A stretch of DNA of 51,108 nt from Wohlfahrtiimonas larvae (GTDB lineage Bacteria > Pseudomonadota > Gammaproteobacteria > Cardiobacteriales > Wohlfahrtiimonadaceae). The position numbers were made by a program, and so were the translations under genes. Below, piece by piece: positions 447-2,233 of this stretch; within the stretch, counting starts at the first letter, position 1; each line of letters opens with the position of its first letter. The DNA lies in NCBI RefSeq assembly GCF_002006755.1, contig NZ_MVDO01000077.1:1-51108 (forward strand), read 5' to 3'. The notes beneath the pieces are model-generated. The model was given only the letters and a program-made list of their open reading frames with translations, did no database searches and was not told the origin of the DNA.

Positions 447-475
447 TTGACAGCTAGATCTTTAAGTGATTTTAT
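447..475 (+). promoter_or_regulatory. Probable sigma-70 promoter of the metA leader
   Basis: A perfect TTGACA (447-452) is followed after 17 bases by TTTTAT (470-475). The -10 is imperfect but sits in an AT-rich stretch with alternative registers (TATATA at 473-478). Transcription would start near 483-487, about 20 bases before the leader peptide start. Confidence 0.55.
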
Positions 476-507
476 ATATCCAACGTAAATTCAAGAATTA
501 AGAGAAC

Positions 508-546
508 ATGAATACACTAACATTTCAACCAATGATGATGCTTTAG
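508..546 (+). CDS. metA leader peptide with a Met-Met-Met run
   Basis: A short reading frame encodes MNTLTFQPMMML and stops at TAG (544-546). A purine-rich TAAGAG (499-504) just upstream could serve as ribosome binding site, although the spacing is short. Three consecutive ATG codons (532-540) lie immediately before an RNA folding region and an intrinsic terminator that ends 30 bases upstream of metA. This is the layout of classical amino-acid attenuation (trp, his, leu leaders), here with the codon of the pathway's end product. The peptide is too short for homology to support it; the case rests on position, codon content and the downstream hairpins. Confidence 0.7.
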   Translation: MNTLTFQPMMML

Positions 547-646
547 AGGGTTACTCACTGAGTGACTCTCGAAACTGTATGAGTCACTCTAAAGCCCCAT
601 TGATTGTATTGTTAAAGCCAGAGTGATTAAACACTCTGGCTTTTTT
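546..646 (+). promoter_or_regulatory. Attenuator: competing hairpins and terminator before metA
   Basis: Five segments can pair in sequence. Segment 1 (546-556) pairs with segment 2 (560-570) in 11 base pairs, two of them G-U. Segment 2 (560-568) pairs with segment 3 (581-589) in 9 perfect pairs. Segment 3 (582-590) pairs with segment 4 (620-628) in 9 pairs, one of them G-U. Segment 4 (614-625) pairs with segment 5 (632-643) in 12 perfect pairs followed by Ts, the intrinsic terminator. So 1:2 plus 3:4 is the read-through fold and 2:3 plus 4:5 is the stop fold. A ribosome stalled at the first Met codon leaves segment 1 free (read-through); one that reaches the stop codon masks segment 1 (termination). 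That polarity is right for methionine feedback. Confidence 0.7.
614..646 (+). terminator. Intrinsic terminator between leader and metA
   Basis: The left arm AAAGCCAGAGTG (614-625), loop ATTAAA and right arm CACTCTGGCTTT (632-643) form 12 perfect pairs and run into six Ts (641-646). It lies just upstream of the metA ribosome binding site (GAGGAG, 664-669), so it must be bypassed for metA to be transcribed from the upstream promoter. Confidence 0.85.
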
Positions 647-675: not shown

Positions 676-1599
676 ATGCCTGTCGTTATTCCAGAAGATT
701 TACCCGCTACCCAAATTTTAAAGGATCACGGCATCTTTGTGATGAACTCTGAACGAGCTCAAAAACAAGATATTCGCCCAATTAAAATTTGTATTCTAAA
801 TCTAATGCCCGATAAAATTACAGCTGAAACTCAACTTTTAAGCAAACTCAGCAACGGAACATTACAAGTTGATATTACTTTAATGGCCATTGAAAACCAT
901 ACTTCTAAAAATACTAAACAATTACATTTAGATACATTTTATAGTTATTTTAATGACATTAAAGATCAATATTTTGATGGCATGATCATTACGGGCGCCC
1001 CCATAGAGCTACTAGATTTTAAAGATGTGACTTATTGGGATGAATTAAGCACAATATTTGAATGGAGTCGTGAACACGTTTTCACATCGCTTTATATTTG
1101 CTGGGGTAGTCAAGCTGCTCTAAAATATTTTTATGATATAGATAAACGTACTTTTCCTGAGAAATTAACAGGTGTCTTTCCGCACATTAAAGAGAAAGAA
1201 GATTCACAATTATTAATAGGCATTGATGATGTATTCTACGTTCCACAATCGCGTAATACTGAAAGTGACCCTGAAGCCATTAGAAATCACCCTGATTTAG
1301 AAGTTATCGCTAGCTCAGAAGAAGCAGGTATACATATTGTTGCCAGTAAAAATGGCAGACAATTATTTATGAGTGGCCATCCTGAGTACAATAAAGATAC
1401 ACTTTTATTAGAATATCAACGAGACTTAGCACAAGGTTCGACTGTTATTCCTTGTAATTATTTTGTAGATAACAATCCTGAAAATGCGATACAAACTCGC
1501 TGGGTCAGCGCTTCTAGTATCTTTTTCCAAAACTGGTTGAACTATTTTGTTTATCAAGAAACAGATTATGACTTTACTTCTCGTCATACTGAGTCATAA
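676..1599 (+). CDS. metA: Homoserine O-acyltransferase (MetA; acetyl-CoA use predicted)
   Basis: MetA acylates the hydroxyl of L-homoserine, the first committed step of methionine synthesis, in the cytoplasm. The 307-residue length is normal. The nucleophile Cys142 lies in ICWGSQAALK, and His235 and Glu237 lie in SGHPEYN. Residue 111 is Glu (GAPIELL); E. coli MetA has Gly there (GAPLGL). In the characterised Bacillus enzyme Glu111 favours acetyl-CoA over succinyl-CoA, so I predict a homoserine O-acetyltransferase despite the usual HTS/MetA naming. The start is ATG 676 with GAGGAG seven bases upstream. It is monocistronic and sits behind a Met-codon attenuator. Confidence 0.93.
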   Translation: MPVVIPEDLPATQILKDHGIFVMNSERAQKQDIRPIKICILNLMPDKITAETQLLSKLSNGTLQVDITLMAIENHTSKNTKQLHLDTFYSYFNDIKDQYFDGMIITGAPIELLDFKDVTYWDELSTIFEWSREHVFTSLYICWGSQAALKYFYDIDKRTFPEKLTGVFPHIKEKEDSQLLIGIDDVFYVPQSRNTESDPEAIRNHPDLEVIASSEEAGIHIVASKNGRQLFMSGHPEYNKDTLLLEYQRDLAQGSTVIPCNYFVDNNPENAIQTRWVSASSIFFQNWLNYFVYQETDYDFTSRHTES

Positions 1600-1621
1600 T
1601 AGACAAAAATATATAATTCGC

Positions 1622-1651
1622 TATAGATCAGGGAATGCTTCCTGATCTATA
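1622..1651 (+). terminator. Hairpin after metA, weak terminator
   Basis: TATAGATCAGG (1622-1632) and CCTGATCTATA (1641-1651) form 11 perfect pairs around an 8-base loop. No proper T-run follows, so it may be a weak terminator or an mRNA 3'-end stabiliser. Confidence 0.5.
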
Positions 1652-1686
1652 ATATCTCACTCTATTATTGTATTAATGATTGCTCC

Positions 1687-2205: not shown

Positions 2206-2233
2206 AAAAAGAGAGTGGTAATCCTCTCTTTTG
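2206..2233. terminator. Bidirectional terminator between mepS and the nadK operon
   Basis: AAAAGAGAG (2207-2215) and CTCTCTTTT (2224-2232) form a perfect stem with A and T tracts on both sides. It would stop transcripts arriving from both convergent genes. Confidence 0.75.

Follow-up and report, generated by a model that had tools for sequence, protein, structure and literature searches.

A predicted methionine-codon leader attenuator upstream of metA, with a second copy upstream of metY, in Wohlfahrtiimonas

The window, meaning the whole stretch of 51,108 nucleotides analysed here, is an entire contig (C258) of the 2.5-Mb genome of Wohlfahrtiimonas larvae. Close to its beginning lies metA, which looks monocistronic and whose product matches two NCBIfam models over its full length, MetA_acetyl (423.8 bits) and MetA_succinyl (399.6 bits), both scores being below the cut-offs. 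Position 111 of the protein is a glutamate that is invariant in our alignment and is the residue linked to acetyl-CoA use, which fits metY as the pathway partner of metA. The products of these two genes constitute the direct sulfhydrylation pathway to homocysteine.

Between its promoter and metA, the DNA carries a short reading frame with three successive Met codons (ATG AAT ACA CTA ACA TTT CAA CCA ATG ATG ATG CTT TAG), a chain of segments that can pair in alternative ways and an intrinsic terminator (Table 1). The original prediction, made from the letters of the DNA, had described a promoter, a 12-codon MMM frame, five pairing segments and a terminator, and comparison with the sequence and its inverted repeats places all of them at the coordinates it gave; the pairs it had claimed (1:2, 2:3, 3:4 and 4:5) are likewise correct. 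To that scheme we add segment 0, whose partner is the 3' part of segment 3. The terminator (GCCAGAGTG-ATTAAA-CACTCTGGC-TTTTTT, 617-646, or 614-646 when delimited more widely) ends about 30 nt before metA and is clear by eye and among the inverted repeats, but was not listed by a generic terminator scan, most likely because its stem runs into the T-run. The RNA of positions 482-660 folds to -49.3 kcal/mol, against -30.1 +/- 3.8 kcal/mol for shuffled sequences (z = -5.0).

Table 1. Features of the metA locus in the window, and loci of the RNA elements of other lineages treated in the text
Feature	Position	Strand	Remarks
Promoter	447..475	+	-35 TTGACA 447-452, 17-bp spacer, -10-like TTTTAT 470-475; from sequence
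Shine-Dalgarno-like AAGAGA, weak	500..505	+	upstream of leader ATG; weakly kept among relatives
Leader peptide frame MNTLTFQPMMML*, 12 codons	508..546	+	Met codons 532, 535, 538; stop TAG 544-546
Segment 0 (GCTTTAGAG)	540..548	+	can pair with 587-595 (CTCTAAAGC); inverted repeat
Segment 1 (GAGGGTTACTC)	546..556	+	pairs with segment 2 in 12/12 copies
Segment 2 (GAGTGACTCTC)	560..570	+	partner is 1 or 3
Segment 3 (GAGTCACTCT)	581..590	+	partner is 2 (terminating state) or 4 (antiterminator)
Segment 4 (GCCAGAGTGAT)	617..627	+	terminator 5' arm and antiterminator 3' arm
Segment 5 (CACTCTGGC, 632-640) and T-run (641-646)	632..646	+	intrinsic terminator (617-646); two-sided changes in 4:5
metA, homoserine O-acyltransferase, 307 aa, probably acetyl-CoA dependent	676..1599	+	ribosome-binding site GAGGAG 664-669
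Hairpin ATAGATCAGG...CCTGATCTAT	1620-1652		3' of metA
Two-way terminator	2207-2232		between convergent NlpC/P60 gene and next gene
Conserved RNA of sister genera	L175:1598-1669, L177:1583-1674, L178:1614-1703, L183:1882-1973, others		before metY
Lachnospiraceae Met-rich leader (MDMMMSMGMMMCMLFVMF...)	L035:2713-3001 (CALWSU010000003.1)		also L203, L205, L206, L207, L208, L223

The leader is a property of the genus. All six genus genomes examined contain a detectable metA with the leader upstream of it, the promoter keeping TTGACA at every locus with TTTKAT at 17 bp, and the peptides read MNTLTFQPMMML, MNTNQFQPMMML, MNTTNLQLMMML, MNTTNLQPMMML and, in two genomes, MTHPSALMMML. The window genome has exactly two occurrences of the DNA string ATGATGATGCTTTAG, one upstream of metA and the other upstream of metY, a gene for a 424-aa O-acetylhomoserine sulfhydrylase (TIGR01326, 582.8 bits with a cut-off of 495.1); near-matches to ATGATGATG that we inspected in the same genome had no attenuator context and were rejected. 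A covariance model of the element, trained on seven copies, detects two strong copies in every one of the six genomes (12 in total, E 5e-14 to 2e-25) and, among 34 further relatives and 368 further genomes of the class, nothing of similar strength; the class-wide scan matched its own genome alone. Weaker matches (E 1e-3 to 0.1) were discarded, those inspected (L127-L129, L141, L146, L147) being ordinary terminators lacking MMM. The second copy lies directly upstream of metY in five of the six genomes, with leader peptides MKFLFVVEMMML, MNLFVIEMMML or MNLLFVIEMMML; in the remaining one (G002) the contig ends about 105 nt beyond the element, and the gene behind it is unreadable. At that contig end (L187:7405-7628, G002:C78), a sequence resembling the end of an insertion sequence (GGGGCTGTTGAACATTTG) follows the attenuator. 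The MMM frame, whose conservation upstream of metA had been proposed as a check, is present in every species of the genus sampled, and recurs in a second copy.

Across the 12 leaders, MMM is invariant, the frame is open with no frame-breaking indel, and an intrinsic terminator with a T-run always stands between the frame and the gene. The metA and metY copies differ in their promoters and in the N-terminal part of the peptide, and their similarity begins at MMM, so that a single unit, running from the Met codons to the terminator, sits before both genes. Eleven of the 12 frames have the stop codon; in the metY copy of G001 (L140, G001:C1:901385-901511), TAG has become TGG and the frame runs for 51 codons, past the terminator. 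The loss of this stop in one of 12 copies is a counter-point to the attenuator model, and the same copy is a natural variant with which the model could be tested.

The stems were scored on a 12-row alignment of all copies. In the four alternative stems, 98-99% of cells are conserved as pairs, a figure that drops to 29-50% once the partner is displaced by 1-3 columns. Segments 1 and 2 pair in every cell, the last pair passing through a series from C-G to U-G to U-A; 3:4 is paired in 97.8% of the cells with letters and 2:3 in 96.3% of cells; 4:5 is paired in 100% of cells, with two-sided changes at two pairs. None of 500 shuffles matches the observed percentage or score for 2:3 taken with 4:5, whereas 118 of 500 reach the observed value for 1:2 with 3:4, because these segments barely vary. 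The 0:3 pairing is full in eight of the 12 copies; two others carry one mismatch, and the remaining two an insertion of 2 nt. Covariation is thus modest in the central stems and clear in the terminator: the covarying stems that had been predicted are borne out as far as the pairing and the two-sided changes in 4:5 are concerned, but such changes are few in the central stems, and the weak covariation of the near-invariant segments 2 and 3 is a further counter-point to the model.

The effect of ribosome position was computed by folding the leader with the ribosome-covered RNA removed and segment 5 not yet made. When the ribosome stands at the first Met codon, the top pair probabilities of 1:2 and 3:4 lie at 0.93-1.00 in 11 of the 12 copies, the metA copy of G004 giving 0.38 for the antiterminator fold; when it stands at the stop, 2:3 reaches 0.81-1.00 in all 12. 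The polarity is therefore the predicted one in every copy, a stall at the first Met codon favouring the antiterminator and arrival at the stop the terminator. In all 12 copies, segment 4 is also sequestered more on average with the ribosome stalled than with the ribosome at the stop; dinucleotide shuffling of the RNA between the stop and segment 4 attains the observed difference in 0-9 of 200 trials for each copy. A ribosome at the second Met codon gives mixed folds and one at the third mostly the terminating fold, so that the first Met codon is the most effective stall position; that a stall at the third codon is predicted to yield no antiterminator in most copies is a counter-point to the model. 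Once segment 5 is present, the terminator wins at equilibrium wherever the ribosome stands (4:5 at 0.66-1.00), and the switch would therefore have to be kinetic, the antiterminator having to form first and to persist. When no ribosome is present in the computation, 0:3 tips most copies towards the terminating arrangement; those before metA in G003 and G001 are exceptions.

These observations very probably reflect a transcription attenuator of metA that is ribosome-mediated and specific for methionine, a second copy of which stands before metY, and the interpretation first put forward is largely supported. A run of Met codons in a short frame stands before both genes, and the computed folds provide an exclusive antiterminator set by ribosome position, with conserved pairs. 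With charged elongator Met-tRNA plentiful, the ribosome would read through MMML, halt at UAG and cover segment 1, whereupon 2 and 3 would pair, segment 4 would be left free for segment 5 and transcription would stop about 30 nt before metA. With Met-tRNA in short supply, the ribosome would wait at the first (or second) Met codon and leave segment 1 free; with segment 5 still to be transcribed, 1:2 and 3:4 could then form and RNA polymerase would proceed into metA. On a wholly untranslated leader, segment 0 could engage segment 3, which in most copies would promote termination. In cells, the terminator and the stall would both have to act in this manner, with Met-tRNA as the probable signal and a switch that is presumably kinetic. 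The logic is that of the his type, a known mechanistic class, and it is the amino acid specificity and the target genes that appear to be new. Methionine also starts every protein, so that a shortage should hit initiation and elongation on the leader together: charging of the initiator tRNA would fall as well and reduce leader translation, which counts against the model.

Another way to read the same leader is as an arrest peptide, in which a small molecule (SAM, methionine or a drug) would make nascent MMML hold the ribosome at the stop, much as in TnaC or ErmC-type leaders, and the halted ribosome would determine how the RNA folds. MMML followed by a stop is indeed the sole invariant part of the peptide, bar the copy without a stop, but we consider this reading improbable. 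Arrest peptides usually depend on upstream residues, and here the residues before MMM vary freely (NTLTFQP, THPSAL, KFLFVVE), as suits a frame that is decoded better than it suits a specific arrest sequence. With the ribosome stalled at the stop, segment 1 would moreover be covered and termination favoured, so that the molecule would need to act as a repressing signal; the Leu and stop codons fall within segment 0, where the 0:3 pairing accounts for their conservation; and the metY copy of G001 has no stop at that position. Marginally less probable still is a general sensor of slow translation, in which any stall on the leader would raise read-through and methionine would have no special part. 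The RNA switch does depend on ribosome position alone, as such a sensor would have it, but three Met codons stand exactly at the fold-switching position in both gene contexts, metA and metY, and the window genome has no further occurrence of the exact string.

A metabolite riboswitch for SAM or methionine that contains a short frame by chance is very unlikely, even though SAM-I riboswitches control metH and metF in the same genome. At gathering score, Rfam gives no family anywhere in the window, T-box included, and nothing rises above threshold at the metY loci or, with a permissive threshold, at positions 440-690. The one sub-threshold match, to STnc400 (E 3e-4; 30.4 of the 80 bits needed), follows hairpins and was rejected. 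The conserved bases are the arms of the competing stems, with no conserved aptamer-like loops. Least credible of all is a stable small RNA ending at the terminator, with metA served by a later promoter of its own: the terminator is strong, and attenuators do yield short RNAs, but just about 30 nt separate the T-run from the metA ATG, and exclusive conserved stems are coupled to an MMM frame in two gene contexts.

Within Cardiobacteriales, the window genus appears to be the sister of Ignatzschineria. A search for a Met leader before metA of the sister genera found none. There, metY and metA are adjacent, and a different conserved RNA precedes metY. It comprises a covarying hairpin whose loop has an invariant part (GTTTCTAATTTTTTGG), and AACCAATAAAATTTAGGAG, likewise invariant, at the ribosome-binding site; it is found in all 11 genomes of two sister genera (Ignatzschineria and one other), in none of the six of the window genus, and has no Rfam match. 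Its invariant U-rich loop is nearly complementary to the invariant stretch at the ribosome-binding site, and a pseudoknot with a layout like that of SAM-II or SAM-V is possible. Relatives that keep metA and lack the leader had been named in advance as evidence against the attenuator. The leader is indeed absent outside the genus, but metA stands there in another context, a metY-metA operon with another RNA, so that this absence represents replacement and not refutation. The MetY proteins of the sister genera resemble, by eye, a different subfamily, which places the replacement at the level of the pathway and not at one orthologous promoter.

Further afield, we scanned 110 metA upstream regions for short frames with at least three consecutive Met codons, and the matches were the six genus loci and one Lachnospiraceae metagenome-assembled genome (MAG). 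The latter has TTGACA-17-TATAAT, AAAGGAG and a 36-codon frame (MQIVAFGKMESMDMMMNMGMMMCMFFVMFIYILSSF), followed by a terminator and metA. In five relatives, M(D/G/N)MMM...FVM frames are retained together with the terminator; in a close relative (L204) the leader is not present. At or just past the leader stop, TTCTGA(G) can pair with CTCGGA of the terminator in five of the six, as a candidate antiterminator, and the folded stall-minus-stop difference is positive in all six. No similarity to the window element was seen beyond the Met codons, which suggests that this Met-rich leader and terminator before metA probably arose independently.

Gammaproteobacterial metA is known mainly for control by MetJ and MetR, as the original prediction noted. 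The Pfam model of MetJ (PF01340) found no match in 31 genomes, the window's included, while the E. coli positive control was matched. SAM-I (RF00162) occurs at three places in the window genome, one of them probably a repeated contig end, with metH and metF downstream; it has no match in three other genus genomes and none at the metA or metY leaders. Across this gammaproteobacterial family SAM-I is seen before metH, metF and metE-like genes (L155, L157, L158, L159, L160-L174), and also before a gene for a PLP enzyme (L171). It is thus likely that the first steps of the pathway (metA, metY) sense Met-tRNA and the last ones (metF, metH) SAM. Methionine leader attenuators of metA probably constitute an undescribed type that has arisen at least twice, in a Cardiobacteriales genus and in a Lachnospiraceae clade, and that in the former would split the control of the pathway between Met-tRNA charging, read by the ribosome at metA and metY, and SAM riboswitches at metF and metH.

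Attenuators are textbook matter for His, Trp, Thr, Leu, Ile/Val and Phe. Finding one for methionine in nature would show that such logic can serve this amino acid too, and would offer a clean test of initiator against elongator Met-tRNA charging during starvation. Such an attenuator also supplies a regulator of metA in a lineage without MetJ, and illustrates how the regulation of one pathway is exchanged among attenuators, riboswitches and repressors in close relatives.

The expectation that a methionine attenuator of metA would be unusual holds, there being no Rfam family and no description of one in the accessible parts of the searchable literature. One survey, covering methionine regulation across about 200 genomes of Proteobacteria, deals with MetJ, MetR, SahR, SamR, three riboswitch families and the metXZ RNA, and its text has no word starting with 'attenuat'; an actinobacterial survey reports no conserved RNA structure before methionine operons, and the retrieved passages of a survey of premature terminators mention no methionine leader peptide. 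Within this open-access literature on Proteobacteria, Actinobacteria and premature terminators, the portions available name no supported attenuator of methionine biosynthesis, and direct phrase searches returned nothing relevant on one.

One proposal is the metL leader candidate of Streptomyces lividans, likewise a methionine leader peptide before a methionine gene set (metNIQ), with weak support; its peptide (MSTTSDRTPATEATTTPGARCMCRRMCAF) has scattered Met beside Cys and lies in front of a transporter, and by the authors' account there is no typical terminator (PMC8079986). The betaproteobacterial metXZ RNA also combines a leader RNA, alternative folds and a terminator before homocysteine-forming genes, but has six conserved blocks and a proposed pseudoknot, with no leader peptide in the text available (PMC4239095). 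Met-tRNA charging is read by leader RNAs controlling methionine genes in the initiator-tRNA Met T-box of Staphylococcus aureus (PMC3771891), and by a Xanthomonas SAM-I element that senses uncharged initiator tRNA (PMC7270179); both bind the tRNA directly and have no leader frame, whereas here the ribosome would do the reading, presumably of elongator Met-tRNA. The SAM-I elements before metH and metF exert RNA control on methionine biosynthesis in the same cell, but through an aptamer that senses SAM and that has no similarity to the metA leader. His_leader (RF00514) itself has no match in the window genome; sub-threshold matches occur in two relatives (L199, G026:C2:1092690-1092822; L200, G003:C7:155112-155217). 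It is with this family, and with the Thr, Leu and Ilv attenuators of gammaproteobacteria, that the metA leader shares its plan, a short frame with codons for the product amino acid, alternating stems and an intrinsic terminator, and its logic, in which a stall near the run frees the antiterminator and a ribosome at the stop allows termination. It differs from all of them in its Met codons, in the genes it precedes (metA and metY) and in having no Rfam match, and from the His attenuator, which has an A-F layout, in its five-segment chain with the additional segment 0.
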